From positions 1 to 46,860 of the forward strand of contig CALUUV010000004.1 in NCBI GenBank assembly GCA_944324055.1: a stretch of 46,860 bases of DNA, in the 5' to 3' direction. This stretch comes from Candidatus Gastranaerophilales bacterium. GTDB lineage: Bacteria; Cyanobacteriota; Vampirovibrionia; Gastranaerophilales; Gastranaerophilaceae. Shown here piece by piece: positions 1 through 17,151 of this stretch. Numbering within the stretch: the stretch's first letter is position 1; every line of letters begins with the position of its first letter. A model generated the notes under the pieces. That model was not told where the DNA came from. It was given only the letters and a program-made list of their open reading frames with translations, and ran no database searches. Position numbers and translations under genes: made by a program.

Positions 1-222
1 TCCATCTTGCCGATGCTATGGGACAATTATGCAAGAACAGTATAATGATGGTAGTAATTATATGCAGTCCACTACTGAAGGTTAGCTTTCCGCCAAAAAG
101 CTTTGGCTAGAGTTCTGGTTTAGTAGATTTCCAGCTTTAGTTGAGAATAATAATTTACTACACTCGTAGAGATTTGTTTAGATCCATTTTGGACGTGGGT
201 TCGATTCCCACCATCTCCACCA
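1..222 (+). ncRNA. ssrA: tmRNA (ssrA), 3' portion, 5' end outside window
   Basis: tmRNA rescues stalled ribosomes: its tRNA-like end is charged with alanine and its internal frame tags the unfinished protein. The 3' end is recognisable. A T arm (GTGGG, TTCGATT loop, CCCAC) at about 196-212 is followed by the acceptor strand and an encoded CCA ending at 222. The preceding ACTCGTAGAGATTTGTT stretch resembles the 3' stem of other tmRNAs. None of the three forward frames in the first 95 bases ends in the usual Ala-Ala stop, so the tag sequence probably lies just upstream of the window. The 3' ends of ssrA genes are common integration sites for mobile DNA, which matters for the two genes that follow. 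Confidence 0.85.
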
Positions 223-224
223 AT

Positions 225-253
225 AAAAAAGAGACCTTTGAGGTCTCTTTTTT
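225..253 (+). terminator. Rho-independent terminator of ssrA
   Basis: The inverted repeat AGAGACCT / AGGTCTCT has a TTG loop and is followed by a T-tract, starting directly after the tmRNA CCA end. The A-run on the left makes it usable by the minus-strand gene ending at 291 as well. Confidence 0.85.
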
Positions 254-290
254 ATGCAATAATTATTATAATAACTTAATTATTAACAAA

Positions 291-2027
291 TTATAATTCC
301 ATAGGAAAATCATCATTATCGTTTTTAGCTTCTATTTTTACATTAGTCACTTCTTGTTCTTTAGCCCTTAATATTGCTAGTGTTTCTCGATAGTCTTTCG
401 CTTCTGCAATTTTCGTAAATTCTATTTCTGCATAATTATCTTTTACAACTTTTTCGATTTCTTCTAGTGAAACTCTAAAAAACTCTTTTTTCATATTTAC
501 CATATTTACACTTTTATCTCTAAAAGTTTCATGTAGTTTATTTTCTAAAGCTGGGGCATCTTCTGAAAAAATCATAGCATGCACATCAAATTTAAAAGGA
601 ACAGAAGCATCTCCAAGCTCATTTATTCTTTCCATTGGATCTAAACGTCTTGTCATTCCAATCTTGTAAACATTTTCACCAAAAGAACCAATATTAGAAA
701 TTACATATATATGACCACATTTTGTTAATTGTGCCTGTGAAATTGCTCTTTGTTTTCTTTCTTCAGCTTCTTGTAAATCTTGTTGCAACTTAGCGATTTG
801 AGCTTCATATTTAGAGCGTTCTTCAGCATTTGATTTTTCTAATTCTTCATAAGCTTTTTGTAATGCTTTTTGATAATCTGCTTCTTCTTTTTCAGCTTTA
901 ATCCTAGCAGCTTCTAACTCTTTTTGGGCTTTTTGCTCTTCTCTTATTTGCTCTTGTATTCTTTTTTGTTCTTCTTTTTCTTCATGTTTTTTTACTTCAT
1001 ATTCGTATGTTAAATATAATTCTTCAAACTTTAATTGCAAATATGAATTTTGTATAACAATATTGTTGGCTTCTCCTAACTTATTTATATCATCAAATGC
1101 TTTTTGTATTCTAATTTCCATTTTATCAATGTTATTCCACTTTGTTTTTGAAATAATGGAATCACATTCCCCGTTGAATGCTTTTAACATTAATTTAATA
1201 TTTCTATTAATCATTTGTCTACCTTTAGATTTACTACCTTCAACAGACCATTCAGTATGACAAATTATTGCTTTTTTATTTTTTACTAAAGCTTTCTGTT
1301 TTTCAAAATTTTTAGTTATAGCATTCTTATATGCAGATGAATCATCAAAATTAAAGTGAGGTTTATATAAGCCTACTATCATCATTTCTACATCTTCTTC
1401 TAATAGTTCTTTTCTTTTTATTAATTCATCATATATGGCTTTATTGCTTTTATAGTTTGTTTTTAAATCTGTAATTTGCTCATTTATACTTTCTAATTCT
1501 TTAACGATTTCATTGTGCCTATCATTATCTTCTCGCAATCTATTTTCTATTTCATCATCAATATTTATAATAGAAGAATACTTCATTTTTAAGTTTTTTG
1601 TTGATTGATAAAATTTTATTGCAAATATTATTGATATTATTAAAAAGAGAATAGTGGTAAAGAAGGCAAATGTAAAAATATTATTACTAAAAATCTCTTT
1701 ATTTTCATTAAAACTGCTACTGAAAGATAAATATATTAAATATAAAAATAAACAAGTAATTCCTTTATATAATCCATAATTTTTTAAGTTAGTGACTTTT
1801 TCAATTTTTTTACTCAATGGAGGGGTTATTAATATTGCAAATATTAGAAGAAATATAAAGTATATTTTACCTTCTATAGCATCAGATAAAAGGATAATAA
1901 AAGAACTAATTGAAAATAGCCAAGCAAAAATATTAAAAAAAGCTTTTCTACAACCATCTAAATCATTATTATCTTTTTTAGGGGGTAATTTATCATTATT
2001 ATTTGAATTACTTGTCATATTAATCAT
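291..2027 (-). CDS. SNIPE-like membrane-anchored DUF4041/GIY-YIG nuclease (anti-phage candidate)
   Basis: A 578-aa protein. Residues about 25-140 hold four hydrophobic segments, so the N-terminus is membrane-embedded. A charged coiled coil follows (about 150-215). Next comes a DUF4041-type region (about 215-345) with the motifs VGLYKPHF, WSVEGSKSKGRQM and FNGECD. A second long Glu/Lys coiled coil (about 350-430) leads to a C-terminal GIY-YIG fold of the MUG113/T5orf172 type. That domain shows GHIYV near 438, VYKIGMT, a conserved Arg in MERINEL and the catalytic-type Glu in ALENKLHETF. The order membrane helices, DUF4041, GIY-YIG matches SNIPE, described as an inner-membrane nuclease that cuts phage DNA as it enters. 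The gene is divergent from a second nuclease gene (131 bp apart) and abuts ssrA, a typical island site. The family call is strong; the anti-phage role is inferred. Confidence 0.82.
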   Translation of the reverse strand: MINMTSNSNNNDKLPPKKDNNDLDGCRKAFFNIFAWLFSISSFIILLSDAIEGKIYFIFLLIFAILITPPLSKKIEKVTNLKNYGLYKGITCLFLYLIYLSFSSSFNENKEIFSNNIFTFAFFTTILFLIISIIFAIKFYQSTKNLKMKYSSIINIDDEIENRLREDNDRHNEIVKELESINEQITDLKTNYKSNKAIYDELIKRKELLEEDVEMMIVGLYKPHFNFDDSSAYKNAITKNFEKQKALVKNKKAIICHTEWSVEGSKSKGRQMINRNIKLMLKAFNGECDSIISKTKWNNIDKMEIRIQKAFDDINKLGEANNIVIQNSYLQLKFEELYLTYEYEVKKHEEKEEQKRIQEQIREEQKAQKELEAARIKAEKEEADYQKALQKAYEELEKSNAEERSKYEAQIAKLQQDLQEAEERKQRAISQAQLTKCGHIYVISNIGSFGENVYKIGMTRRLDPMERINELGDASVPFKFDVHAMIFSEDAPALENKLHETFRDKSVNMVNMKKEFFRVSLEEIEKVVKDNYAEIEFTKIAEAKDYRETLAILRAKEQEVTNVKIEAKNDNDDFPMEL

Positions 2028-2158
2028 ACTTAACTCCTTTTTCTATACAGTATCATAAATATATTTAATTAAATATTAATTTTTATTTATTTTCTTTTAA
2101 AATATTTTAAATAATTTTATAATTAAAATTATAAAGCATTTTATTTTATGGAGGTTAG

Positions 2159-4276
2159 ATGTACAAATATTTAAATATTCAAAGATTATTTAAAGAAACA
2201 ATAAGATATGAATACATGTCAGAAACAGAAAAAAATAAAATTAAATATTATAATGAAAAACTTTTGAAGCAAATTAGGGATTTAATAAATAAAAAAAAGT
2301 TTGATAAAGCATTAACTATTTTTATAAGTAAAGGTAGAGATATCCCTCGAGGAGAATATTTATATGAACTTCTACAAGAAATTGACGAATCACAAATAAA
2401 ATCAAATGAAAAAAAATTGATATTATCTGCTCAAAAAATAACAAATAAATTTATCAGTAAAGACTATAAATATGTTATTGATAATACAGAAAACCTCTTT
2501 GACAAATATAAATCTCTTTTAAAATTTCATCAACATGATATGAGTGCGAGACTTTTAAATTTTTATATTGATTCATATAAAGCAACTAAACAATTTGAAG
2601 TTGCCAAAATTAAAATTGATGAATTTTTACAAAAAGATATATCTTTTTTAGCTAAAGGTACTTTATTAATGGCAAAATATGAGCTTGAAGAGGACTATAG
2701 ATTACTTGAACAAGCATATGATATGTTTATTCAAGGAAGATTTCTTTCTAATGCAATATTTGCATTAACTTTATATGCTAATAGAATTTCCTTAATAAAC
2801 CAACATAAATTAAATAAAATTGAAAAACAATTAGAAACTTTTTTTTATAAAAATAATGATATAAGTGATCTATATATATTAGCAGTTCATTATTATGGAC
2901 TGATTATAAAATATAAAGATATGACTGAATATGAAATTGCATTAAATTATTCAACAAAAATATTAGAAATAATTTGGGAATATATACATCTTGATATATT
3001 TAAAGATATTTTATATAGAACATTAGGTGCATTAGGTGAGCTATGCCAATATTTAAATATTGATACAATTAAATTTGGAAAAAATAAAGAACGAAGCATC
3101 AAACTATGTACCAAAGATTGTTTTACAAATTCTAATGATATCAAAAATATACAGCCACCAAATAATTATGGTTTTTGGGAAATACAAAATGAAATTTGTG
3201 GAAATAAAAATTTTAAAAAATTTGACGAATTACAAGAAAAATATAAAGAAGACACATATTTCTTATCATTGCTATATTTAAGATTCGCAGAAAATAATCT
3301 ATCTTTAGATTATACAAGTAGAATTGGATATTTAGATAAATCATTAGATTTAATAAAGGAATTCCCATATTTCGAACAAGAAAAAGCACATATTTATAAA
3401 GTATATTCTAATATTTTTCTTGAAAATAAAGATTTTAAAAGATATTTTAAATACTCACAAAAGTATTTGAATATAATCTCATATGATATTTTATTTAATG
3501 AAAAATATATTGAAAATCTTGTAATGAAAAATAAATGGGATTTACTAGAAAGATTTGTTTATTTGAACAATGAAAGAGTTATAGAAACTACTGAGAATCA
3601 ATTTTTATTAGCAAAAGCATTATATAATCAAAATAAAGATTTAGATAAAGCTTTAACATTATTAACATGTATTGAAAATCAAATAAATGAAAAATATAGA
3701 ACTGAATTACATATAATGAAATCAGATCTAATTAATAGAAAATGTCAAGTAAATTTTGATTTAACAACAAATCAAATAAAAGAAATTGTAACACAACGCA
3801 TTGTAGAAGATGCAATAGATGAATTTATTAAATATATTGAAGCGAATTTTAGAAAAGATTATTTTCAATATGATAAATACAAAAAAGATTATAATTGGAT
3901 ATCAAAACCAGAAGAAAAATGTAAAAAAGATTTGAAATTCTTTTTAGATATTAAATTTAAAGAGGAAATAATTTCTATTGAAGAAATTTCAACTGGAGCA
4001 GGATATATCGATTTATATTTATTTTTTAAAAGTGGATTAGAAATAATTATAGAATTAAAAATATGTGGAATCAATTATTCAGCACCGTACGCTGAAAAAG
4101 GGATTAACCAATTAAAACATTATTTACACAATAAACAATCTAAATTAGGCTATCTAATTGTTTTTGATGCAAGAAAAAAAGATTTTGCAAAAAAAATCAC
4201 ATCAGTGTTAAAATCTCAAAATTATTTAATTCAAACAAAGTTTGTAGATATGAGAATGAATACACAAACAACGTAA
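2159..4276 (+). CDS. Helical-repeat protein with C-terminal PD-(D/E)XK nuclease domain
   Basis: A 705-aa protein of unrecognised family. Residues 1 to about 545 are almost entirely alpha-helical with irregular TPR-like repeats. The last ~150 residues form a restriction-endonuclease-like core. It has GAGYIDLYL with Asp618, then IIIELK with Glu632 and Lys634 (the D...E-x-K signature), a helix with NQLKHYL, and a strand GYLIVFDA as in PDDEXK_9-type nucleases. The start at 2159 is supported by GGAGG four bases upstream. A second Met at residue 19 is an alternative start. Base composition is even more AT-rich than in the flanking housekeeping genes, suggesting acquisition. It is divergent from the SNIPE-like gene and may be co-inherited with it. 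Nuclease fold is likely; function (defence, toxin or DNA repair) is inference from fold and position. Confidence 0.7.
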   Translation: MYKYLNIQRLFKETIRYEYMSETEKNKIKYYNEKLLKQIRDLINKKKFDKALTIFISKGRDIPRGEYLYELLQEIDESQIKSNEKKLILSAQKITNKFISKDYKYVIDNTENLFDKYKSLLKFHQHDMSARLLNFYIDSYKATKQFEVAKIKIDEFLQKDISFLAKGTLLMAKYELEEDYRLLEQAYDMFIQGRFLSNAIFALTLYANRISLINQHKLNKIEKQLETFFYKNNDISDLYILAVHYYGLIIKYKDMTEYEIALNYSTKILEIIWEYIHLDIFKDILYRTLGALGELCQYLNIDTIKFGKNKERSIKLCTKDCFTNSNDIKNIQPPNNYGFWEIQNEICGNKNFKKFDELQEKYKEDTYFLSLLYLRFAENNLSLDYTSRIGYLDKSLDLIKEFPYFEQEKAHIYKVYSNIFLENKDFKRYFKYSQKYLNIISYDILFNEKYIENLVMKNKWDLLERFVYLNNERVIETTENQFLLAKALYNQNKDLDKALTLLTCIENQINEKYRTELHIMKSDLINRKCQVNFDLTTNQIKEIVTQRIVEDAIDEFIKYIEANFRKDYFQYDKYKKDYNWISKPEEKCKKDLKFFLDIKFKEEIISIEEISTGAGYIDLYLFFKSGLEIIIELKICGINYSAPYAEKGINQLKHYLHNKQSKLGYLIVFDARKKDFAKKITSVLKSQNYLIQTKFVDMRMNTQTT

Positions 4277-4314
4277 TTCATTATTTATGATAATTATTAA
4301 TAGTATTTTATTTT

Positions 4315-4812
4315 TTAGAACTTTTTATACATATCAATTATTGAGTCATTTATGTCTATAAAAATCACTTTTTCAAAGCAATCGTAGTGGTTTATAAATT
4401 CAGTTACTGCATCGTATGCTATTTGGCAAGCTCTATCTATTGGAAACCTATAAACTCCACAAGATATTGCAGGAAAAGCTATTGTCTTAATATTATTTTC
4501 TTTTGCAAGATTTAGCGCTGTAATATAACAAGATTTTAAAAGCTCCGGTTCGTTTTTATCTCCACCATACCATACAGGTCCTACTGTATGAATTACATAT
4601 TTTGCAGGCAAATTATAACCTTTTGTAATTTTAGATTGACCTGTTTCACAACCATTCAAAGTTCTGCACTCTGCCACTAATTCTTTTCCTGCAGCACGAT
4701 GAATCGCTCCATCTACTCCCCCACCACCTAGCAAGGTTCTATTTGCTGCATTTACTATGGCATCTACTTTTAACTTTGTTATATCACCCTTTAAAATTTC
4801 AATTTCTGTCAT
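4315..4812 (-). CDS. Macro-domain protein, O-acetyl-ADP-ribose deacetylase type
   Basis: A 165-aa single-domain protein of the YmdB-type macro family, which binds ADP-ribose and hydrolyses O-acetyl-ADP-ribose or removes ADP-ribose from proteins. Visible motifs are [16 protein letters not shown] (first strands and the Asn/Asp pocket), [15 protein letters not shown] (catalytic loop), HTVGPVW and the phosphate loop [10 protein letters not shown]. Length is typical for a stand-alone macro enzyme. The start is set by AGAGGTG seven bases before the ATG on the minus strand. It sits between the nuclease pair and a divergent cupin gene. It could be a housekeeping gene or the edge of the island, since macro domains also occur in ADP-ribosylation-based defence. 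The sequence alone does not decide. Confidence 0.9.
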
Positions 4813-4962
4813 AATTCACCTCTAATTAATTCTATCATTTATGTACCAATTTGATACAAATTAATAATATATTTTATTAATTATTATATTAATATAGCTA
4901 TTTGTTGAATGTATCTTGTCCTTTAATATGCTCTAATGATATAGACCAGAAAGGAGAATGTT

Positions 4963-5268
4963 ATGTTCTACAATGTTTTAAAAGCTAAAGATTTAGTTTC
5001 ACTTAAAGAAGAAAAAATGGATAGAGAAGTCTTAATGGAAAACGGTGATAGTTCACTTACCATTATGGCTCTAAAAAAAGATGAAATTATCGATACTCAT
5101 ACATCAATAGCTGATGCTGCTGTTTATGTTCTTGATGGTGAAATTGAATTACATTTTGATGCTGAAAAATTTAAGTTAGATAAAGGTGAAATACTTGTGT
5201 TTAAAAAAGACAAAGAACACAAAGTATTAGCACTAAAAGATAGTAAATTCTTATTAATCAGAATTTAA
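4963..5268 (+). CDS. Small single-domain cupin protein
   Basis: A 101-aa protein with one cupin barrel. The central part has DTHTSIADAAVYVLDGEIELHFD (one metal-site His, then the G-x-I-E turn) and the second motif has KLDKGEILVFKKDKEHKV with a His. The usual HxH pair of motif 1 is reduced to a single His (DTHTS), so metal binding is uncertain. A strong Shine-Dalgarno (AAAGGAG) precedes the ATG. The gene ends just before a clear terminator, so it is a one-gene unit. Such short cupins often act as sensors or small-molecule-binding proteins; the ligand cannot be told from sequence. Confidence 0.75.
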   Translation: MFYNVLKAKDLVSLKEEKMDREVLMENGDSSLTIMALKKDEIIDTHTSIADAAVYVLDGEIELHFDAEKFKLDKGEILVFKKDKEHKVLALKDSKFLLIRI

Positions 5269-5276
5269 AAACTTTT

Positions 5277-5306
5277 AAACGGGTGAAAATATCACCCGTT
5301 TATTTT
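5277..5306 (+). terminator. Terminator after cupin gene
   Basis: A perfect 10-bp inverted repeat AAACGGGTGA / TCACCCGTTT with a 5-nt loop, followed by a T-rich tail. The hydE -10 box begins right at its end. Confidence 0.8.
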
Positions 5307-5311
5307 ATAAT
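5306..5311 (+). promoter_or_regulatory. -10 box of leaderless hydE
   Basis: A perfect TATAAT ends six bases before the hydE ATG, and no Shine-Dalgarno is present. A start site about seven bases after the box coincides with the ATG. The -35 position (5283-5288, GTGAAA) would lie inside the preceding terminator hairpin. Confidence 0.6.
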
Positions 5312-5317
5312 CTTGTT

Positions 5318-6295
5318 ATGTTTTCAAAAGAAGAAATTATAAAAATCCTATCATCTAACGATGATTCTATATTAAAAACAGCTGATGAAATTAGGAAACA
5401 ATATGTTGGAGATTCGATACATCTAAGAGGACTAATTGAATTTTCTAATTATTGCAACAGAACCTGTTACTATTGTGGTTTGAGATATGAAAACAAAAAT
5501 AATCAAAGATACAGGCTCTCTCCGGATGAAATTATAGAATCAGCAAAACTTGGAAAAAAATTAGGACTAAAAACAATTGTTCTTCAATCTGGAGAAGACC
5601 ACTATTATTCTACAGATATATTATGCAAAATTATTGAAGAAATAAAAAAACTTGATGTTGCAATTACTTTAAGTATTGGCGAAAAAACTTATAACGAATA
5701 TAAAGCTTATAAAGATGCAGGAGCAGATAGGTATTTATTAAGGATAGAAACAACAGATAAAGAATTGTATAAAAAATTACATCCAAATATGTCTATCGAT
5801 AACCGATTAGAATGCTTACACAACCTTAAAAGCTTAGGCTATGAAACAGGAACAGGCTGTCTTGTAGGACTCCCAGAACAAACAATTGAATCTCTTGCGG
5901 ATGATATTTTATTTTTTAAAGAAATTGATGCTGATATGATTGGAATAGGGCCTTTTATTCCGCATCCAAATACCCCACTGGGGAATTCTAATATTAACCT
6001 TAATAAAAATTTTGATTTATCAATAAAAGTTATGGCTCTCACAAGAATACTTCTAAAAGATATAAATATTCCTGCAACAACTGCAATGGAGACATTAAAC
6101 CCTAATGGACAAATTATTGCTCTACAATCAGGAGCTAATGTTATTATGCCAAACATTACAAACGACGAATGTAAAGATAAATACAATATTTACCCACACA
6201 AAAAGAACCAAATCATATCTGATACAATTAATAAAATACACTCTATAAATAGAACTGTTTCTAATGAAAAAGGGTTCAGAAATAAAACTTCATAA
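5318..6295 (+). CDS. hydE: [FeFe] hydrogenase maturase HydE (radical SAM)
   Basis: A 325-aa radical SAM enzyme. The signature LRGLIEFSNYC and CNRTCYYC (Cys46, Cys50, Cys53) bind the catalytic 4Fe-4S cluster. The following GLRYEN..RYRLSPDEI is the HydE/PylB-like pattern, and a TIM-barrel core with a BATS-like C-terminal region (TTAMETLNPNGQ, LQSGANVIMPNITN) completes it. HydE helps build the diiron subcluster of the [FeFe]-hydrogenase H-cluster together with HydG and HydF, neither of which is in this window. BioB and PylB are related alternatives, but HydE fits best. Translation appears to start on a leaderless transcript. The gene implies H2 metabolism in an anaerobe. Confidence 0.88.
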   Translation: MFSKEEIIKILSSNDDSILKTADEIRKQYVGDSIHLRGLIEFSNYCNRTCYYCGLRYENKNNQRYRLSPDEIIESAKLGKKLGLKTIVLQSGEDHYYSTDILCKIIEEIKKLDVAITLSIGEKTYNEYKAYKDAGADRYLLRIETTDKELYKKLHPNMSIDNRLECLHNLKSLGYETGTGCLVGLPEQTIESLADDILFFKEIDADMIGIGPFIPHPNTPLGNSNINLNKNFDLSIKVMALTRILLKDINIPATTAMETLNPNGQIIALQSGANVIMPNITNDECKDKYNIYPHKKNQIISDTINKIHSINRTVSNEKGFRNKTS

Positions 6296-6349
6296 TAATA
6301 GCAAAATTTAACATATTCGCTTTTTCTATAAATATCTGAGGTTTTATTC

Positions 6350-7372
6350 ATGAATATTTTAACATCATATACCCCATATTTAGCTCAAAGATACCGTAAA
6401 GTCGCTGCAGAACAAATGAATAAGCTTACGGTTCAAACTTCAGACAATAAAAAAACAATTAAAACCTCAAAACTTACAACTAGAGTAATTAAGCTATTAA
6501 AAAAGCTCAAAAAACAAGATAATACGATTAAACTTGTTCCAGAGAAACAAAACCAATCACTTATTAAATACTTAGGATTTAATTTCCATATTAAAGAAGG
6601 TGAAACAATATCTGTTAATGATAATTTATTCATAAATTACAATGGGAAACTAACACCTCTGAATATATCAAAGGAATTATTGAATAAATTATTTCCGACC
6701 CAAAACCAATACTCAAAACAATCAAAAAGGATTGGAAATTGTTGGCTAATATCAACAATTAATGGACTTATGCAAAAGCCTAAAGGTAAAAAACACATAT
6801 ATAATTTATTCACCCAATACAATAACAATGTACTTTTAGAATTTGAAAAAAATAAAGTTTTATTCTCGACACCTACAAACATTAAAGTTGGAGAAAAAGG
6901 TTGTGCAGAAGGGAATAAAGGAGTGAAACTAATTGAACAAGGATTAGCAGCTTCAAGAAGATCATGTTTCGATTATATTAATATGGATAATTATAATGCC
7001 ACAATTGATGTAGATGATTATATGAATTCACTAAACGGCGGATTCCAAATTGAAGCGCTCAAAATTATTTCAAAAGACTTAAACCCTAAAGTTATCACCT
7101 GCAAACATAATCTATTACAAAAGCATGCAATCAAAAAATATGCAAATAACGATGATTATTTTGTTGGATTAACAACAATGCCAAATTTTGAAAACCCAAG
7201 AAAATTCTATGGAGATAAACTAATGCCCGCTCATAGTTTCAGCATAAAAAGTTACAACAAAAAAGAAAAAACGGTCTCAATTATCGATCCACTTAAACCA
7301 GAAGAAGAAATTAAAATGGATATTAATGAATTAAAAACTTATCCATTTGCTCTTACATATTGTAAACTATAA
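6350..7372 (+). CDS. Calpain-like (papain-fold) cysteine peptidase
   Basis: A 340-aa protein. The C-terminal two thirds resemble a C2/calpain-type cysteine peptidase. Cys131 lies in RIGNCWLISTING (compare GDCWLLAAL of calpains), preceded by Gln124 as candidate oxyanion residue. His295 lies in MPAHSFSIKSY and Asp313 in SIIDPLKPEE, where calpains carry Asn in NPWG. The first ~115 residues are basic and Lys-rich with a small beta region, and are not recognised. No signal peptide or membrane helix is visible. GAGG lies 10 bases before the ATG. Bacterial calpain-like proteins are rare and several are secreted or virulence-associated. The substrate here is unknown. The Asn-to-Asp change makes activity likely but not certain. 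Confidence 0.65.
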   Translation: MNILTSYTPYLAQRYRKVAAEQMNKLTVQTSDNKKTIKTSKLTTRVIKLLKKLKKQDNTIKLVPEKQNQSLIKYLGFNFHIKEGETISVNDNLFINYNGKLTPLNISKELLNKLFPTQNQYSKQSKRIGNCWLISTINGLMQKPKGKKHIYNLFTQYNNNVLLEFEKNKVLFSTPTNIKVGEKGCAEGNKGVKLIEQGLAASRRSCFDYINMDNYNATIDVDDYMNSLNGGFQIEALKIISKDLNPKVITCKHNLLQKHAIKKYANNDDYFVGLTTMPNFENPRKFYGDKLMPAHSFSIKSYNKKEKTVSIIDPLKPEEEIKMDINELKTYPFALTYCKL

Positions 7373-7397
7373 AAAAAACCGAGAGTAAACTCTCGGT
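7371..7397 (-). terminator. Terminator of flagellin transcript
   Basis: The stem ACCGAGAG / CTCTCGGT with a TAAA loop is followed on the minus strand by eight Ts. It lies about 80 bases beyond the flagellin stop. The plus-strand peptidase gene ends at the same point. Confidence 0.8.
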
Positions 7398-7475
7398 CAC
7401 ATTTCCCATATAAAAAGTATCAAAATTGTATCGTAATTAATAATAGTATTTTTCGGATTGTATCATTTATTATTT

Positions 7476-8324
7476 TTATAATAGATTTAATGCAATTGAA
7501 GGTGCTTGGTTTGCAGTCGCCAACAATGATGCAGATGCTTGTTGTAAGATTTGAGCTTGAATGAATGCAGATGATTCTTCAGCAACATCAGCATCTCTGA
7601 TTGTTGATAATGAAGATGTTGTATTTTCAAAACGTACAGTCAATGCATCACTTGCAGACTCTAGTCTATTTTGATAAGCACCAATTCTTGTTTGACGAGT
7701 TGTAACTGTATTAATTGCTTCATCTAATTGATCTAAAGCAGTGTTATAATCTGTTCCACCTACTGTGAAATAATCTGCAAATGTTTGATTGTTAACTCCA
7801 ATTAGAACACTTGCAACACTATTTTCAAATAAATCAGCATCTAGCTTGATAGAACTGTTTGCAGAAGAATCAATACCACACTGAATATTTATCTCACCAG
7901 AAGAACCATCCATTAAATTGATTCCATTAAATTCACAACTATTTGCAACCCTATCAATTTCTGCTAATCTTGCTTCTACTTCTGATTTAATTGCTTCAAT
8001 TGAATCTTCACCATAAGTTCCGTTTGCAGCTTGTTCGGTTAGATCTCGAATACGTTGTAAGTGAGTTGTAATTAAATCATAGTTGCTTTCTGCTGTACTT
8101 AGTAAACTTGAACCGATAGAACAGTTATCTTGTGCTACTGATAAAGAACTCAATTGAACATTCATATTTTGAGCAACAAAGTAACCCGCAGCATCATCTT
8201 TTGCAGCATTAATCTTATAACCTGTTGTCATTCTTTCCATAGCTTGGTTTAAGCTATTTGTTGCTGAGTTCATGTTTTTTTGAACCAATAAGGATGCCAT
8301 GTTTGTGTTAATAGTCAGTGCCAT
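7476..8324 (-). CDS. fliC: Flagellin
   Basis: A 282-aa flagellin, the filament subunit exported by the flagellar type III system. The N-terminal D0/D1 pattern is present (INTNMASLLVQKNM, NQAMERMTTGYKINAAKDDAAGY), and so is the C-terminal D1/D0 helix (RIGAYQNRLESA, DADVAEESSAFIQAQILQQASASLLATAN). The variable middle is short (about residues 150-200), so the filament surface domain is minimal. AAAGGAG precedes the ATG with good spacing. The gene is a single-gene unit with a long intergenic region upstream. No other flagellar structural genes lie in the window, which is usual for fliC. Confidence 0.97.
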   Translation of the reverse strand: MALTINTNMASLLVQKNMNSATNSLNQAMERMTTGYKINAAKDDAAGYFVAQNMNVQLSSLSVAQDNCSIGSSLLSTAESNYDLITTHLQRIRDLTEQAANGTYGEDSIEAIKSEVEARLAEIDRVANSCEFNGINLMDGSSGEINIQCGIDSSANSSIKLDADLFENSVASVLIGVNNQTFADYFTVGGTDYNTALDQLDEAINTVTTRQTRIGAYQNRLESASDALTVRFENTTSSLSTIRDADVAEESSAFIQAQILQQASASLLATANQAPSIALNLL

Positions 8325-8420
8325 AAATTGATACTCCTTTCAATTTTTACGCACGGGTACAACATATCTGATACATGCACAATCTAACAGATGTCATATG
8401 CACATGAATCACCTAGCTGC

Positions 8421-8441
8421 TTAGTTAACGATTGTTTATTT
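8421..8441 (-). promoter_or_regulatory. Sigma-28-like element upstream of flagellin
   Basis: On the minus strand this reads AAATAAACAA then TCGTTAACTAA. It matches 18 of 21 positions of the element upstream of the 270-aa gene (22018-22038), where it overlaps the -10 box of a FliA-type promoter. Here the -35 position (8444-8451) is a poor match to TAAAGTTT, so assignment to sigma-28 is tentative. Confidence 0.45.
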
Positions 8442-8752
8442 AACCAATAAATCAACCATTCGTATTTAATACATAGTGTTTACTTTTTCCGGTAAATAAT
8501 CCTTTTCTACCATGAAAAAATGACAACTATTTTAATTGTGGGTAATGTACCTTTCCGTGTCCCCGAGTAATGTATATCCGTATACTTGTATTATTACACA
8601 TGTTTTAAAAATGTAAACCCTTTTTACATATTTAATGTTACAAAAGTATATATTTATGACAGAACTAAGATATAGTAGCGATTTCAGAGTTATTTATAAA
8701 ATTAATATATAAATTTAAATGTAAAATTTTGTAAATAATAGAACAAAAATAC

Positions 8753-8779
8753 TAAAGATTTTAATAAAAAAGCCGATAT
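8753..8779 (+). promoter_or_regulatory. Sigma-28 (FliA)-type promoter
   Basis: TAAAGATT (8753-8760), exactly 11 bases, then GCCGATAT (8772-8779). The FliA consensus is TAAAGTTT-N11-GCCGATAA, so 14 of 16 positions match with perfect spacing. It lies about 30 bases before the ATG of the 51-aa gene and points toward it. Confidence 0.8.
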
Positions 8780-8809
8780 AAAAACTACAGTCAAAAGAAA
8801 GGATAGTAT

Positions 8810-8965
8810 ATGTTAAAAAAGATTGAAACACCTACTTGTAATACCTTCAGTGGCGTAGAATATATACTCAGAGGCGCAAAGAAAAGACGTGCTTCTGCTA
8901 TAGCAAATGCCAGACGTATGAATGCCGAAGTCGGAGTTCAAACAAAACTGGTAGCGGTTAAGTAA
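8810..8965 (+). CDS. Small basic 51-aa protein under a flagellar-type promoter
   Basis: A short gene encoding 51 residues starting MLKKIETPTCNTF, with a strongly basic middle (RGAKKRRASAIANARRMN) predicted to be helical. AAGAAAGGA lies seven bases before the ATG, a FliA-type promoter lies just upstream, and a clean terminator follows. Promoter, ribosome site, frame and terminator together make it a convincing gene despite its size. No family is recognised. By its promoter it should be expressed late in flagellar assembly with flagellin. It could be a small regulator, an export chaperone or a structural cofactor; none of these is shown by the sequence. Confidence 0.65.
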   Translation: MLKKIETPTCNTFSGVEYILRGAKKRRASAIANARRMNAEVGVQTKLVAVK

Positions 8966-9006
8966 TCATGGTCTAACGATTTAGTAAGATAGTTGAGAGT
9001 AATTTT

Positions 9007-9032
9007 AAGCGAACCAAGGTTCGCTTTTATTT
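9007..9032 (+). terminator. Terminator after the 51-aa gene
   Basis: The stem AAGCGAACC / GGTTCGCTT is followed by TTATTTT. The tight two-base gap means the top pairs open into a four-base loop. Confidence 0.8.
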
Positions 9033-9084
9033 TGCAAAAAAAATAATTTATGATAAGATGTATATAGCTTAGAGGAAAGACCTT

Positions 9085-9174
9085 GGAAAAGTGGCCGAGT
9101 AGGCTTAAGGCGGCACCCTGCTAAGGTGTTGTGTGGAGTAATCTGCACCGTGGGTTCGAATCCCACCTTTTCCG
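9085..9174 (+). tRNA. tRNA-Ser (GCU)
   Basis: The acceptor stem GGAAAAG (9085-9091) pairs with CTTTTCC (9167-9173), with discriminator G at 9174. The anticodon loop CTGCTAA gives anticodon GCU, reading AGU/AGC serine codons. There is a long class II variable arm, and the T arm is GTGGG-TTCGAAT-CCCAC. CCA is not encoded (AATTTT follows). A UUCG-loop terminator starts seven bases downstream. Confidence 0.95.
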
Positions 9175-9180
9175 AATTTT

Positions 9181-9204
9181 AAAGACCCTTCGGGGTCTTT
9201 TTTT
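9181..9204 (+). terminator. UUCG-loop terminator of tRNA-Ser
   Basis: AAAGACCC-TTCG-GGGTCTTT followed by Ts. A stable tetraloop hairpin seven bases after the tRNA end. Confidence 0.9.
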
Positions 9205-9349
9205 GTGGGATGAGAACCACAAAGCGGTAGCTTTGTCTAGGTTCGAGCGCGAGTGAGCTGAGGGCGAAGGTCTTTTCTTTGGAGCAAGTACCACTTGCAA
9301 AAAGAAAAACCGTAGACCCGTTAAACGCGAACGAGCAAGACAAGCCCAC
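9205..9349. other. Candidate structured RNA / repeat element, copy A
   Basis: A 145-bp element much richer in GC than its surroundings. GTGGG at the left end pairs with CCCAC at the right end. Inside are ACAAAGC-GGTA-GCTTTGT, a GTCTA/TAGAC pairing, and a long hairpin with TTTTCTTT / AAAGAAAA outer and GCAAGT-ACC-ACTTGC inner stems. Whether it is transcribed is unknown, as it follows a terminator. Confidence 0.5.
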
Positions 9350-9365
9350 CTTTTCCGAATTTATT

Positions 9366-9397
9366 AAAACCACCTTTGATTAGGTGGTTTTATTTTT
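9366..9397 (+). terminator. Second terminator in repeat copy A
   Basis: AAAACCACCT / AGGTGGTTTT with loop TTGATT, then TATTTTTG. It follows the second copy of the tRNA-Ser 3' end, as if that end once belonged to a complete tRNA gene. Confidence 0.8.
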
Positions 9398-9497
9398 GTA
9401 TTCGGGGTAGGTTCTCACCCAGTGGGTTCGATTCCCTCCTTCCTAAAATTGATACTTAATCAATTTTAGGCGGAGTCCTTCACCTTTTCCGAATTTT

Positions 9498-9521
9498 AAA
9501 GACCCTTCGGGGTCTTTTTTT
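9498..9521 (+). terminator. UUCG-loop terminator in repeat copy B
   Basis: Identical to the hairpin at 9181-9204: AAAGACCC-TTCG-GGGTCTTT plus Ts. No intact gene precedes it. Confidence 0.8.
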
Positions 9522-9666
9522 GTGGGATGAGAACCACAAAGCGGTAGCTTTGTCTAGGTTCGAGCGCGAGTGAGCTGAGGGCAAAGGTCTTTTCTTTGGA
9601 GCAAGTACCACTTGCGAAAAGAAAAACCGTAGACCCGTTAAACGCGAACGAGCAAGAGAATCCCAC
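9522..9666. other. Candidate structured RNA / repeat element, copy B
   Basis: Same element as 9205-9349 with four differences. In this copy the end pairing is longer: GTGGGAT at 9522-9528 pairs with ATCCCAC ending at 9666. The inner hairpins are kept. Confidence 0.5.
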
Positions 9667-9682
9667 CTTTTCCGAATTTATT

Positions 9683-9714
9683 AAAACCACCTTTAATTAG
9701 GTGGTTTTATTTTT
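9683..9714 (+). terminator. Second terminator in repeat copy B
   Basis: AAAACCACCT / AGGTGGTTTT with loop TTAATT, then TATTTTTG. It differs from the copy A hairpin by one loop base. Confidence 0.75.
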
Positions 9715-9862
9715 GTATTCGGAGCGGATTCTTACCCAGGGGGTTCGATTCCCGCCTTCCTAAAATTGATACTTAATTAATTTTAATTAAATAGTTTTAT
9801 TTTTAATTAATAAATGATAAAATTTATCTACAAATTTTATTTTCATAAAGAGAGGTTCTTGA

Positions 9863-10597
9863 ATGAATATTATAACTTTAGACTTTATTAAAAACATATT
9901 AAAAAAACCAACTTTTATTTTTAGTTTAATTACAATATTATTAAGTTTAATCATATTATTTGGTTGTCATTTCCAATACCCAGACTTTTATTCTAATAGA
10001 GAACTTGCAGACCAAATAGCTCAAACTGTTTCACCACAAGATGTAGAACAAGCAGTAAAACATTTATTAAACCCTAGATATAATATATTTAATATTATTT
10101 TCCAAATATGGGGTTGGTGTGTAACATTATTAATATTCTCAGCAACTTTTAGAATTGATAAGTTTAGCAAATTCAGACAACTACCAATTCTAAATAAAAA
10201 ACTTTTCATTTACCTTTGGATTAATTTATCATATTTAATATGGGGTTTTGCCTATATTTCAGGATATATGATTAATCTTGAGAAATATGTATATAATGGA
10301 GCTGCCGATACTTTCGCTATCCCTTTATTTGGTATTATTAGCGCACTAATATTTATAGGTGTAATTTATTATCTAATAACAAATCTTCTTGCTTTTATCA
10401 CCTATAATACAAAAATTAAAAGAATCTTTTATAATTTTTTATGGTTCTTTTTATTTATATTTTGGTTAATTCTTACTATTGATACATTCACCTGGCAGTT
10501 CAGCTACTACCATTTGATATTAGATTTATATTATTTTATTACATTAATTTTAATAATATATGCTATGGGATTTAACAAAAATTTAGAAATTAAATAA
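9863..10597 (+). CDS. Polytopic membrane protein of unknown function
   Basis: A 244-aa protein with about six hydrophobic segments (near residues 18-37, 73-95, 112-135, 150-180, 190-208, 215-238). A ~35-residue polar loop after the first helix (FYSNRELADQIAQTVSPQDVEQ) probably faces the periplasm. No catalytic or transport motif is recognised. GAGAGG precedes the ATG by eight bases. It stands alone between the tRNA-Ser repeat array and a convergent papain-like gene, and so may belong to a variable region. It is AT-rich with many Phe/Tyr/Trp residues, as expected for a membrane protein. Confidence 0.7.
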   Translation: MNIITLDFIKNILKKPTFIFSLITILLSLIILFGCHFQYPDFYSNRELADQIAQTVSPQDVEQAVKHLLNPRYNIFNIIFQIWGWCVTLLIFSATFRIDKFSKFRQLPILNKKLFIYLWINLSYLIWGFAYISGYMINLEKYVYNGAADTFAIPLFGIISALIFIGVIYYLITNLLAFITYNTKIKRIFYNFLWFFLFIFWLILTIDTFTWQFSYYHLILDLYYFITLILIIYAMGFNKNLEIK

Positions 10598-10622
10598 TTA
10601 TTGTATCTTATTCAAAATTAAA

Positions 10623-11522
10623 TTAAGATAACTTTATTTTTTGAGATATAAAATTAATAACTTTTGAAAATAATGATGTTTTCTTTTGAACTGGCTCTTC
10701 TTTGGGTCTTGTTATTTTTAAATTATAATCCTTTTTTAAAGAGTCAATTATCTCAGTTGGAAATTCTTGTACTGTTAAAAATGAAAAAGCATAAGCCTTT
10801 TCAGCTTTTTCTTTATTTTCATTAAGAAGTAATTTAGGATACAACGCTGTTAAATGTTTTTTCTCTGTACCTGATAAATTTAATTTATATTGAGGTAATA
10901 ACATTAATTTATCACCTTCTTCAAGTTGTTCTGAAATATATTTCCCTGACTGATATTTTACAAATGCTTGATTTGGATAATCAGCAAAGCCAGACCAAGT
11001 ATCTAATATTATTGCATCGTTGTTAGGTTTTATTAAATGCTCTGCTTCTACATTATCTATTCCATTCCAATATTTATAATTCTTTGGAAGTTTTACATTT
11101 ACACCTGCAACAACATGATCTAAATCTTTTATTATATTAGTTTTAGGGTTATATGCATATAAATAAAGAGTACTTGCATCTTTATAATCATTTAGCTCTA
11201 AAGCAGCACAAGTTGCAGATGCTTGTTCATAACAATTCCCTACTCTTGTTTTTTTTAGTCCAGGTAACATTTTAAATACATTAACACTTGGCTCATTAGA
11301 TATTGAGTAATAATTACGTAATTCACTTATCTGAGAAGAAACATAACTTATAAAATTAAAACAATCAGGTTTTCGTTCTGCATTATTAAATGTTTCTAAG
11401 GCAGTATTTGAATACACCGGAAATTCTTGATGAACTCTGCGACAAATTTCATCAGCTTTCCTTATTGAAATATTTCTTGATCTAAAATATGGGGTCGAGT
11501 GAGATTGATTTATTGTATTCAT
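10623..11522 (-). CDS. Papain/transglutaminase-like protein with Cys-His-Asp triad
   Basis: A 299-aa protein, family not recognised. The order Cys97 (RVGNCYEQASAT), His136 (KDLDHVVAGVNV) and Asp174 (DAIILDTWSGFAD) matches a transglutaminase or papain-like triad, including the strand spacing. The first ~20 residues (NTINQSHSTPYFRSRN) are polar and Phe-containing, like the N-termini of several other unknown proteins here. The C-terminus has a Lys-rich helix. There is no signal peptide. It could be a peptidase, a cross-linking enzyme or a secreted effector. A second papain-fold gene lies about 4 kb away at 6350. No clear Shine-Dalgarno was identified. Confidence 0.6.
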   Translation of the reverse strand: MNTINQSHSTPYFRSRNISIRKADEICRRVHQEFPVYSNTALETFNNAERKPDCFNFISYVSSQISELRNYYSISNEPSVNVFKMLPGLKKTRVGNCYEQASATCAALELNDYKDASTLYLYAYNPKTNIIKDLDHVVAGVNVKLPKNYKYWNGIDNVEAEHLIKPNNDAIILDTWSGFADYPNQAFVKYQSGKYISEQLEEGDKLMLLPQYKLNLSGTEKKHLTALYPKLLLNENKEKAEKAYAFSFLTVQEFPTEIIDSLKKDYNLKITRPKEEPVQKKTSLFSKVINFISQKIKLS

Positions 11523-11641
11523 ACAATTATTTGAAAACCTATAATAAAATATTTTGCTAGTTTATATAGTTCTTTTTATTAGACAAAATATTAATGTTTT
11601 TTTCTAAATACATAATAAAAATAATACAAGGAGGGAAAATT

Positions 11642-11848
11642 ATGTTTAATTTCTTAAAATATTTTTCATTTGTACTAGTAATTATAGGTGCTTTAAATTG
11701 GGGGCTTATTGGGTTCTTCAATTTTGATTTAGTTGCTGCTATTTTTGGCGAAATGACAATGATGTCTAGAATAGTCTATTCGTTAGTCGGTATAAGTGCT
11801 ATCGTATCAGCTATTACTACTTACATGTGCCATGCTGATTGTTATTAA
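11642..11848 (+). CDS. DUF378 family small membrane protein
   Basis: A 68-aa protein with two membrane helices. The signature LVIIGALNWGLIGFFNFDLVAAIFG is diagnostic for DUF378, followed by RIVYSLVGISAI. The start is placed at 11642, not at an upstream in-frame ATG (11594), because a strong AAGGAGGG sits eight bases before it. Function is unknown in general; members are small inner-membrane proteins. It is a single-gene unit ended by a terminator. The C-terminal Cys/His residues (YMCHADCY) are unusual but short. Confidence 0.88.
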   Translation: MFNFLKYFSFVLVIIGALNWGLIGFFNFDLVAAIFGEMTMMSRIVYSLVGISAIVSAITTYMCHADCY

Positions 11849-11856
11849 TCTTATTT

Positions 11857-11888
11857 AAAGAGCTTTCATTTTTTGAAAGCTCTTTATT
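11857..11888 (+). terminator. Terminator after DUF378 gene
   Basis: AAAGAGCTTTC / GAAAGCTCTTT with a seven-base AT loop. The T-tail is short (TTTATTAAT). Confidence 0.75.
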
Positions 11889-11940
11889 AATAATCTAATA
11901 TGCCGAACTAGGCAATTTATTTTTTTATTGAAGAATTTAA

Positions 11941-11946
11941 TATAAA
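11941..11946 (+). promoter_or_regulatory. -10 box of leaderless MCE gene
   Basis: TATAAA ends exactly six bases before the ATG at 11953, with no Shine-Dalgarno in between. This is the same geometry as hydE and the TPR gene at 40155. Confidence 0.55.
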
Positions 11947-11952
11947 AATGTT

Positions 11953-12795
11953 ATGAGAAAATATTTTTTATTAGGATTTATTTTAATTGCGATAGGTTTA
12001 TGTTGGGTTATTTATAAAGAAATAACTTACACTAAAATTTATGTAAAATTTGCAGATTTAAGACCTTTTAATAATAGAATACCTGTATATTATAAAGGTA
12101 TTGTCATAGGTGAAGCGAGAGGTAAAAAGCATAGTGATGATTATAAATATACAATCGTAAAACTTGTTTTGTATCCTAAAAATTTAATGCTTCCATCTAA
12201 TACTGAAGTCTTATTGAAGAAAAAAATTCAAGGGGTAAAAATATCTGATTTTATTGAGTTAGTTTATCCTAAAAATCCAACTAATAAAATGATTTGTAAT
12301 GGTTGTATAATCAATGGTTCTACAACTGTTGATATAGATGAGTTTATGAAAAATAATAAGCTTACAGAATTAGAAGAAATTAAAGAGAATTTACTCGCAA
12401 CGACTCAAAATTTAAATCAAGCTACTAAAAATGTTAATACTCTATTGATTAATGTAAATACAATGTTAAAGCAAAATCAGACTAATATTGAAAATACGAC
12501 CAGCAATATTTCTAATTTAACAACTAAAATAAATGATTCCCTAAATCAAACAAATCTTGATAGCACAGTTTCAAATATCGAAAAAATTACAGATAATTTA
12601 AATAAAACGACAGAAAATATAAACACAATGATTCCAGAATTTGGTTCTACAATAGAAAATACTCAAGATATTACTGCGAATGTAAGTGCAATAACTTGTG
12701 GAGTTCGCCAAACACTAAGAAAACCTTTTGGCGGAATGAGAGTTTTATTCGGGAAATCAATTAATGAACCAAGATGCAAAGCTTGTGGACAATAA
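11953..12795 (+). CDS. MCE/MlaD-type lipid-transport protein
   Basis: A 280-aa protein with one N-terminal membrane anchor (residues 4-20) and an MCE domain (about 28-125; FADLRPFNNRIPVYYKGIVIGEA, VLLKKKIQGVKISDFIEL). A long Asn/Thr-rich coiled coil follows to about 245. MlaD-like proteins sit in the inner membrane, form rings and pass phospholipids between the membranes with an MlaE permease and MlaF ATPase, neither of which is encoded here. The coiled coil suggests a needle-like extension, as in longer MCE proteins. It ends with RCKACGQ. Together with lpxK it supports an outer membrane. Confidence 0.85.
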   Translation: MRKYFLLGFILIAIGLCWVIYKEITYTKIYVKFADLRPFNNRIPVYYKGIVIGEARGKKHSDDYKYTIVKLVLYPKNLMLPSNTEVLLKKKIQGVKISDFIELVYPKNPTNKMICNGCIINGSTTVDIDEFMKNNKLTELEEIKENLLATTQNLNQATKNVNTLLINVNTMLKQNQTNIENTTSNISNLTTKINDSLNQTNLDSTVSNIEKITDNLNKTTENINTMIPEFGSTIENTQDITANVSAITCGVRQTLRKPFGGMRVLFGKSINEPRCKACGQ

Positions 12796-12843
12796 TAAAT
12801 TATTGTATTATTAAATAAAAATTTAATTCTGGAAGTAAAATAA

Positions 12844-13686
12844 ATGAATAAATGCACTTTTACACTAAATAATGGTTATGAAATACCTAAATTTGGATTT
12901 GGTACATATCTTGCTGAGGATAAAACACTAATTGAATCAGTAAAAATAGCTATCAATTCTGGATACAGATTAATTGATACTGCGGCTTTTTATAATAATG
13001 AGTCCGCCTTAGGATTTGCAATTAAAGATTCTGAAATAAATAGAAATGAATTATTTATTACAAGCAAAGTATGGAATACTGATAGAGGTTATAAGCAAAC
13101 CAAACTTGCTTTTGAAAAAAGCTTAAACAATCTCAAGCTTGATTACCTTGATTTATATTTAATACATTGGCCAGCAAATAAAAAACAATTTAGTAATGCC
13201 AAAGAAATCAACGCACAAACTTGGAAAGCTATGGAAGAGCTATACCTTGAAGGGAAAATCAAAGCTATTGGTTTAAGTAACTTTTTACCTCATCATATTG
13301 AAGAATTAAAAGAAACAGCGCAAATAATGCCTATGGTTAACCAAATCGAATTTCATCCAGGATTTGCTCAAGTTGAACTAGTCAAATATTGTCAAAAAAA
13401 TAATATTATTGTTGAAGCTTGGTCTCCATTAGGAAGAAGCGATTCTCTAAACAATAAGGCCATAAAATCATTATCTAGAAAATATGACAAAACACCTGCT
13501 CAAATAATATTAAGATGGATTGTACAGCAAAATATCATACCATTACCTAAATCAACAACACCATCAAGAATAATTGAAAACATTAATATTTTTGATTTTG
13601 AACTAGATAATGATGATATTGAACTAATAAATAACATCAAAGAATCAAATGCAGAATGTGCAAACCCAGACGAAGTAGATTTTTAA
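12844..13686 (+). CDS. Aldo/keto reductase
   Basis: A 280-aa NADPH-dependent aldo/keto reductase of the 2,5-diketo-gluconate reductase type. The catalytic tetrad is visible: Asp and Tyr in LIDTAAFYNNE, Lys in ITSKVW, His in LIHWP. The cofactor region GLSNF, NQIEFHP, WSPLGR and PLPKSTTPSRI is complete. Length is normal. GGAAG lies eight bases before the ATG. It is the first gene of a tight unit with an SMR exporter (14-base gap) and an AlkD-like protein (1-base overlap), perhaps for detoxifying reactive aldehydes or alkylating compounds. The substrate is unknown. Confidence 0.93.
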   Translation: MNKCTFTLNNGYEIPKFGFGTYLAEDKTLIESVKIAINSGYRLIDTAAFYNNESALGFAIKDSEINRNELFITSKVWNTDRGYKQTKLAFEKSLNNLKLDYLDLYLIHWPANKKQFSNAKEINAQTWKAMEELYLEGKIKAIGLSNFLPHHIEELKETAQIMPMVNQIEFHPGFAQVELVKYCQKNNIIVEAWSPLGRSDSLNNKAIKSLSRKYDKTPAQIILRWIVQQNIIPLPKSTTPSRIIENINIFDFELDNDDIELINNIKESNAECANPDEVDF

Positions 13687-13700
13687 AGAGGAGATTTTTA

Positions 13701-14018
13701 ATGAGTTGGTTTTATTTATTCTTAGCTGCAATATTTGAAGTAGGTTGGCCTTTAGGTTTTAAAATGGCAGATGTTACTGGACAAAAATATCTTTGGATTA
13801 TATTTGCAATTATTGCAATGACTCTTAGCGGATACTTCCTATTTATCGCACAAAAAGAAATTCCTATAGGAACAGCTTATGCCGTTTGGACTGGAATTGG
13901 AGCATCATGTACATTCCTCATTGGGGTTATATTTTTTAATGATGTACTTAATTTAATGAGACTACTTGGAGTAATTTTAATTATTGGTGGAGTTATTTTA
14001 TTAAAGGTTGGGCACTAA
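13701..14018 (+). CDS. SMR family exporter, Gdx/SugE-like
   Basis: A 105-aa four-helix small multidrug resistance protein. The essential membrane Glu is in AAIFEVGWPLGFK. The motif GTAYAVWTGIGAS is typical of the Gdx (SugE) guanidinium exporters rather than EmrE. The start is set at 13701 because AGAGGAG lies eight bases upstream; an in-frame ATG at 13656 would overlap the aldo/keto reductase. Gdx proteins swap guanidinium for protons as dual-topology dimers. No guanidine riboswitch is seen, as the gene sits inside an operon. It overlaps the AlkD-like gene by one base (TAATG). Confidence 0.88.
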   Translation: MSWFYLFLAAIFEVGWPLGFKMADVTGQKYLWIIFAIIAMTLSGYFLFIAQKEIPIGTAYAVWTGIGASCTFLIGVIFFNDVLNLMRLLGVILIIGGVILLKVGH

Positions 14019-14689
14019 TGAATATTAAAGAAAGATTATTAAAAGAAGTTGATAAAACATACAAAGATTTTAATCAAAAACTGATACCTAATATAAATAA
14101 TATTTTAGGTATTAGAGTTCCAGTTTTACGAAAAATATCAAAAGAAATTTATAAAAATAATTGGCAAGATTTTCTAAAACAAAAACCACAATATTTTGAA
14201 GAAGCAATGTTACAAGGGATGGTAATAGGGCTTATTAAAGATGAACCTAATGCAATTTTAGAATATATTGAAACTTTTATCCCTAAAATTAATAACTGGG
14301 CTGTTTGTGATTGTTTCTGTTCCGGCCTTAAGTTCACGAAGAATAATAAAGAACTAGTATGGAATTTTTTGCATAAATATCTTAATTCTAGTAAAGAATA
14401 TGAAATTAGGTTTGTTCTTGTAATGCTACTTAATTATTACATTGAAGAAAAATACCTAAATAAAATTTTTAAAATAATTGAAAACTATCAATATAATGAT
14501 TATTATGCGCATATGGGAGCAGCTTGGTTAATATCAATTTGCTATATAAAATATCCAGAAGAAACAACTAAATACCTTTTAAATTCTAATATTGATACAA
14601 AAACATATAATAAATCTATTCAAAAAATTATTGAATCTAATAAAATTGATAAAAAAACAAAAAATAAATTAAAAACTTTTAAAAAGTAA
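14018..14689 (+). CDS. AlkD-like DNA alkylation repair protein
   Basis: A 223-aa HEAT-like all-helical protein of the AlkD family, glycosylases that remove bulky or cationic alkylated bases without base flipping. Family patterns are LGIRVPVLRKISKEI near the N-terminus, INNWAVCDCFCSGLK in the middle, and YYAHMGAAWLISICYIKYPE plus IQKIIESN toward the C-terminus. The start overlaps the preceding stop by one base, so translation is coupled. The link to an aldo/keto reductase and an SMR pump suggests a small chemical-stress unit, which is an inference from context. Confidence 0.88.
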   Translation: MNIKERLLKEVDKTYKDFNQKLIPNINNILGIRVPVLRKISKEIYKNNWQDFLKQKPQYFEEAMLQGMVIGLIKDEPNAILEYIETFIPKINNWAVCDCFCSGLKFTKNNKELVWNFLHKYLNSSKEYEIRFVLVMLLNYYIEEKYLNKIFKIIENYQYNDYYAHMGAAWLISICYIKYPEETTKYLLNSNIDTKTYNKSIQKIIESNKIDKKTKNKLKTFKK

Positions 14690-14722
14690 GCAAAAAATCT
14701 ATTTAGATGTTTTCATTCTAAT

Positions 14723-16945: not shown

Positions 16946-17036
16946 ATGCATCTCCTTATTTATGTATCTATTATCATAGAATAGCATACAAAAAATATGC
17001 CTTTACATATCCTTTATAATCAATTAATTTTGGGGC

Positions 17037-17066
17037 AAAAAAAACAGGTAGGATAACCTTCCTGTT
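17037..17066 (-). terminator. Terminator of the sigma factor-prepilin peptidase unit
   Basis: AACAGGTAGG / CCTTCCTGTT with one mismatch and an ATAA loop, followed by eight Ts on the minus strand. It lies about 90 bases past the prepilin peptidase stop. Confidence 0.8.
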
Positions 17067-17151
17067 AAGATTTTACACTAGCCGAAATATAAATAGCATG
17101 TTTATTATAGTAATTTTTTTAAGAAATTACAATACTTTTACATTATTTATA

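Follow-up and report, generated by a model that had tools for sequence, protein, structure and literature searches.

Here we asked whether a gene at the start of a contig from a Gastranaerophilales genome encodes a functional SNIPE nuclease, how its membrane part is built, and how it came to lie beside ssrA. The host is a gut bacterium of a non-photosynthetic cyanobacterial group, and the stretch of DNA analysed (46,860 nucleotides) is referred to as the window. SNIPE, provisionally named PD-lambda-1, is a membrane-bound GIY-YIG nuclease of E. coli (PMC13190303; discovery in PMC9519451) which cleaves phage DNA during injection (PMC13190303). When we searched the literature, no work on phage defence in Gastranaerophilales came up.

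A preliminary description of the window had placed a SNIPE-like gene at 291-2027, and an ORF of 578 residues was indeed found there on the minus strand; its ATG start lies 6 nt downstream of a good ribosome-binding site (AAAGGAG). All of the motifs quoted in that description are present, namely GLYKPHF (residues 219-225), WSVEGS (260-265) and FNGECD (284-289), followed by the nuclease motifs GHIYV (438-442) and YKIGMT (454-459). Pfam searches identified DUF4041 (PF13250) at residues 278-333 (E=3.7e-24, 84.8 bits versus a cut-off of 27), and then MUG113 (E=4.3e-19, 69.3 bits versus 22.3) and T5orf172 (E=2.2e-17, 63.8 bits versus 20), all above their cut-offs and in the order described. Moreover, two PADLOC models of PD-Lambda-1 matched residues 142-575 (PDLC03976, E=1.6e-177; PDLC03977, 5.4e-172), and the PHROG family phrog_1847 matched residues 141-558 (4e-163).

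As the reference SNIPE we used UIV48661 (P0002), a 500-aa protein with DUF4041, encoded in a prophage on an E. coli plasmid; its gene occupies the place that in phage PhiR26_1 is taken by the gene called PD-lambda-1. It carries E223, N250, L253, W257, E264, K305, I308, T319 and E414 at the numbers given in PMC13190303, and these nine residues indicate that it is numbered in the same way as the characterised SNIPE. Over residues 175-552, the window protein shares 54% identity with both the phage copy and the plasmid copy from E. coli. The Glu that the preliminary description had in mind is E495, which aligned with E414, the residue whose replacement by Ala abolishes defence in E. coli SNIPE (PMC13190303). 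In an alignment of 78 homologues, Y441, the KIGMTRR run, R460, R467, E495 and N508 were invariant, the Tyr, Arg and Glu of the GIY-YIG domain among them. At the sites of the Bas14-enhancing changes, which concern contact of DUF4041 with the tape measure protein, the window protein mostly has other residues (E304, Q331, F334, Y338, V345).

An AlphaFold model based on 53 sequences (mean pLDDT 77.5, DUF4041 mostly above 90) showed four helices, a coiled coil, DUF4041, a long helix and a GIY-YIG nuclease fold, in this order (Table 1). The best viral fold matches of the model were mostly T5orf172/GIY-YIG proteins, and searching the PDB with the protein, by sequence and by fold, returned just coiled-coil and weak Slx1 (GIY-YIG) matches. 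The neighbouring genes vary among the window and three other SNIPE loci (L008, G017, G255), so that no conserved partner gene was seen, as is expected of a single-gene system. With a match to the curated defence-family model, DUF4041, a GIY-YIG domain with its catalytic Glu and a membrane N-terminus all found in one protein, the window protein is a SNIPE by all sequence tests applied, as the preliminary description had proposed. It is very unlikely that it is instead a DNA-processing or homing-type T5orf172/GIY-YIG protein with no role in defence: the nuclease domain alone does match T5orf172 and BRO-type viral proteins, but the PD-Lambda-1 match is near full-length, DUF4041 and the membrane anchor stand in order, and an association with defence loci recurs. 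RT-associated SLATT (RTasSLATT, E=0.0017 over 81 residues) and Zorya ZorA (E=0.076) were considered and rejected, since no full-length match was found and both matches were confined to helix 4 and the coiled coil, the ZorA-type one being of the coiled coil only.

Table 1. Positions of the features discussed, in window coordinates unless another locus is named.
Feature	Position	Strand	Basis or remark
ssrA (tmRNA), 3' part only, truncated at 5' by the contig start	1..222	+	Rfam RF00023, 62 bits
Insertion of 4.64 kb (4641 bases), exactly at ssrA 3' end	220..4860	.	Site empty in two sisters (G002, G006)
Hairpin terminator separating ssrA from SNIPE, usable in either direction	223..256	.	-18.2 kcal/mol, z -7.5
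SNIPE (PD-lambda-1) gene, 578 aa	291..2027	-	PADLOC, Pfam and phrog_1847 matches
GIY-YIG nuclease domain (residues 436-532)	432..722	-	Pfam, alignment; no amino-acid change versus L008
Catalytic Glu495 = E. coli SNIPE Glu414	543..545	-	100% conserved, alignment of 78 homologues
Long helical linker (residues 334-435)	723..1028	-	Model
DUF4041 region (residues 219-333; Pfam core 278-333)	1029..1373	-	Pfam and model
Coiled coil (residues 156-218)	1374..1562	-	Single long helix, pLDDT mostly 85-95
Predicted membrane helix 4 (residues 113-139), equivalent to the one helix of ordinary SNIPEs	1611..1691	-	Hydropathy 2.65
Predicted membrane helix 3 (residues 84-106), weakest of four	1710..1778	-	Model helix; 17-residue hydropathy 1.68
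Predicted membrane helix 2 (residues 52-68), within/before motif ITPPLSKKIEKVT	1824..1874	-	Hydropathy 2.14; model helix 55-67
Predicted membrane helix 1 (residues 24-50), start of extra three-helix module	1878..1958	-	Hydropathy 2.12; model helix 24-50
Divergent 705-aa TPR protein, PD-(D/E)XK-like C-terminus	2159..4276	+	TPR superhelix by Foldseek
Macro-domain (O-acetyl-ADP-ribose deacetylase) gene, far end of insertion	4315..4812	-	NCBIfam NF001664, 4.8e-66
Complete type III-A CRISPR-Cas of G004	L244 (G004:C23:5000-24000) 10492-18034		Downstream of ssrA

The closest relative of the window protein is the SNIPE of another MAG, Candidatus Gastranaerophilales BRZ_DL__bin18 (L008, genome G279), to which it is 88% identical over the whole protein. 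This relative has the same four-helix N-terminus and is the sole other member found, but it belongs to a different genus of the same family and lies at a different locus. In the tree, the two proteins form a long separate branch (0.81), apart from the SNIPEs of photosynthetic cyanobacteria. Comparison of the two genes gave a dN/dS of 0.10 over the whole length, with a regional value of 0.06 for DUF4041; the three-helix module and helix 4 gave 0.27 and 0.36, respectively, and the first 27 residues 0.81. In the nuclease, 110 of 110 residues are equal at a dS of 0.81 (dN/dS zero), and a nuclease left unchanged despite a synonymous divergence of about 0.8 indicates that the gene has been maintained. 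We therefore give little credence to a decaying, unexpressed gene. No recognisable promoter rose above background in scans that are uninformative at 20% G+C, but the ORF is full, its ribosome-binding site is good, a terminator is present and selection is purifying. The DNA match between the two loci is limited to the gene and about 35 bases upstream, indicating that the gene moved as a unit. Synonymous divergence looked lower in the N-terminal module than in the nuclease (0.24 versus about 0.8; about 0.25 versus 0.8 when codons 1-145 of the window protein, P0001, are set against 146-578), but a recombination breakpoint between the two parts was not accepted, most tests lacking significance (per-class p = 0.06, 0.21 and 0.04).

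The SNIPE gene of the relative is flanked on one side by Mu-like phage genes (MuB-like, integrase-like and terminase-like); on the other side lie a type I R-M system and a Septu-like PtuA/PtuB pair. The type I R-M genes (L247, G279:C14:7000-26000, 2161-8219) form a defence island with the Septu-like pair and the four-helix SNIPE.

The adjacency to ssrA, pointed out in the preliminary description, was borne out by an Rfam tmRNA match. Two sister genomes (G002, G006) have an ssrA that is 99.5% identical, and 12 bases after it comes the equivalent of window position 4861, ahead of the cupin gene at 4963; these sisters hold the empty site of the insertion that carries the SNIPE gene. The break falls directly after CATCTCCA, the 3' end of the tmRNA, and the insertion brings its own CCA and hairpin terminator. 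G+C content is 20-22% at 1001-4000, compared with 25-37% at 5001-12000. In another genome (G004, ssrA 94% identical), a type III-A CRISPR-Cas system encoding Cas10/Csm1, Csm2, Csm3, Csm4, Csm5, Cas6 and Csm6, together with DUF559 and WYL genes, lies between ssrA and the same macro-domain gene, and in a further one (G001, L206) the ssrA 3' end is duplicated 175 bases downstream, an apparent att-like scar. The empty sites, the CRISPR-Cas system and the scar together indicate that DNA has repeatedly been inserted at the ssrA 3' end, which took two different defence systems in one genus. No second copy of the ssrA 3' end and no integrase were found in the window. We infer that the SNIPE gene arrived as cargo of the ssrA insertion.

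This placement bears on whom the nuclease would serve. It could be a superinfection-exclusion nuclease of a phage or island, stranded by ssrA, which would cut in the same manner and protect the mobile element instead of the host. Many SNIPE homologues are found in phages and prophages, E. coli SNIPE has two lambdoid phage genes, ren and one of rha type, next to it, and the 88% relative follows the Mu-like phage genes. However, no phage gene adjoins SNIPE in the window, where the neighbours are the TPR/PD-(D/E)XK protein and the macro-domain gene, and CRISPR-Cas occupies the same site in a sister, so we regard a service to the mobile element as rather unlikely. It is highly probable, in our judgement, that the window encodes a functional SNIPE with a four-helix inner-membrane anchor, brought in as cargo of the insertion at ssrA.

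The divergent 705-aa neighbour is a candidate second defence gene. Its C-terminus gave a PDDEXK_3 match below the Pfam cut-off (E=0.004) and has a PD-(D/E)XK-like order of strands and helices. A single relative was found, in G001 (47% identical), and the motif GAGxIDLY...LEIIIELK, likewise reminiscent of PD-(D/E)XK, is conserved between the two copies; no relatives were found in phages or viral contigs, and PADLOC and NCBIfam gave no match. Small genes of 71-83 aa (IxxGKKYxLKKIKG) beside the relative's SNIPE (L008, 3575-3790) and beside the TPR relative of G001 (L212, 284-535) are homologous, hinting at a shared mobile gene pool. An lpxK-type gene at 22852-23919, read from its translation, suggests that the window organism has an outer membrane, with which an inner-membrane site for SNIPE makes sense. 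In this gut lineage, which is uncultured, the ssrA 3' end stands out as a site where defence genes are inserted, and is a place to seek further systems such as this neighbour.

The preliminary description expected a SNIPE in this lineage to broaden the family. It does so only a little, since SNIPE is already known from many phyla (PMC13190303) and DUF4041 was found above the Pfam cut-off in 8 of 382 genomes of this class; the novelty here lies in the additional helices and in where the gene was inserted, at ssrA. Within the bacterial family, a SNIPE-like protein occurs in 6 of 383 genomes, the window genome included, and it is absent from all seven other genomes of the genus. Other SNIPEs of the family lie between serine recombinases (G017) or near phage-type regulators (G255). 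DUF4041-like matches in G264 and G374 were discarded, being below the cut-off and at unrelated genes.

We then considered the membrane part, using hydropathy, loop charges and the AlphaFold model. Three segments (residues 29-47, 50-68 and 117-135) passed the strict hydropathy cut, and the third of the four segments named in the preliminary description (about 84-106) is weaker but forms a helix in the model. Confidence is low at residues 30-110, which cover helices 1-3 (pLDDT 49-70), and helix 4 is covered by a model helix of residues 113-151. By the positive-inside rule, positively charged residues mark the loops on the cytoplasmic side, and the K+R counts of 5/0/4/1/3 along the successive loops fit four helices with the N- and C-termini inside. 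The protein is thus predicted to span the membrane four times, with both ends cytoplasmic.

The window protein shares with E. coli SNIPE a membrane N-terminus, the order of coiled coil, DUF4041, long helix and GIY-YIG, the catalytic Glu and a place in mobile DNA. It differs in having four predicted membrane helices instead of one, an N-terminus predicted to be inside instead of periplasmic, and a location in an ssrA insertion of another host lineage instead of a lambdoid prophage; its membrane partner may also differ from the ManYZ-type one of E. coli. Among 474 published homologues, 34% have no helix, 59% have one and 7% have two, and none is given more (PMC13190303). Thus, of the domain order that the preliminary description took to be that of SNIPE, the cytoplasmic part held, whereas four helices exceed the 0-2 of published homologues. 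Our own hydropathy census covered 149 homologues from genomes and viral contigs after removal of near-duplicates (one is a second copy of the window protein, so about 148), and counted 60 with no helix, 80 with one, 6 with two and 3 with three or more, proportions that resemble the published ones. Since one of the three polytopic homologues is the window duplicate, only the window protein and its 88% relative are left with three or more. Many one-helix homologues align from residue 110-120 or so onward, indicating that their helix corresponds to helix 4 and that residues 25-106, approximately, are extra.

The three extra helices also occur outside SNIPE, on two unrelated proteins from this bacterial class. 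One is a 165-aa ORF of G093 (L007, E=8.9e-4 per genome), which shares the PP.S.K motif of helix 2 with the window protein; the other is a 375-aa protein of G233 (L221, E=3e-8 per genome), where they follow a zinc ribbon. The module was not found in viral contigs, and Pfam has no family for it. The variable N-terminus of SNIPE has been proposed to act as an adapter setting the phage range (PMC13190303), and by analogy the three-helix module is best read as a putative exchanged polytopic membrane adapter. An unchanged nuclease (110/110 residues) behind a foreign module makes this protein a clean test case for the adapter idea.

The module might instead sense membrane damage or depolarisation and switch on the nuclease, as proposed for Zorya and Kiwa, and not anchor an enzyme guided by the tape measure protein. 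Zorya and Kiwa likewise act at the membrane during genome injection, but they are multi-protein systems of other architecture (PMC13190303, PMC12904381). The polytopic N-terminus is unlike that of other SNIPEs, and auto-inhibition at the membrane has been suggested for E. coli SNIPE (PMC13190303). However, the window protein fully retains DUF4041, through which the E. coli protein binds both DNA and the tape measure protein, and the presence of the module on unrelated proteins argues that it is not specific to the nuclease; we consider a damage sensor improbable.

With the module as an anchor, SNIPE would, by homology with the E. coli protein, be constitutively present at the inner membrane, held there by its four helices, with a cytoplasmic N- and C-terminus. 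Just beneath the membrane, the coiled coil would hold DUF4041 and the nuclease in place, DUF4041 would contact the tape measure protein and DNA, and the nuclease would cleave the incoming phage genome during injection, while membrane anchoring would keep it away from the host chromosome; in E. coli, SNIPE deprived of its helix becomes toxic, an effect of the nuclease. The gene would have entered through the ssrA 3' end, where defence genes settle in this genus. As a more tentative idea, which we hold with some doubt, SNIPEs may swap whole polytopic modules, which they have in common with unrelated membrane proteins of the host, as targeting adapters, the Gastranaerophilales form may dock on a lineage-specific phage entry protein or sense injection, and it may move among genera through hotspots such as ssrA; the four-helix form is represented by two sequences, both from MAGs of one family.

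Odd N-termini were also found in other SNIPEs. Three zinc-ribbon SNIPEs of Clostridia (L069, L071, L072) have the ordinary cytoplasmic part behind Zn_Ribbon_1 (1.7e-6 for L071) and one or two helices, without the three-helix module. A 640-aa SNIPE of Neomarinimicrobiota (L011, 2147-4066) starts with an SH3_3 domain (1.9e-8 in Pfam); the membrane helix follows only at residue 185, beyond the published range of the first 70 residues, which suggests a putative periplasmic SH3 adapter.
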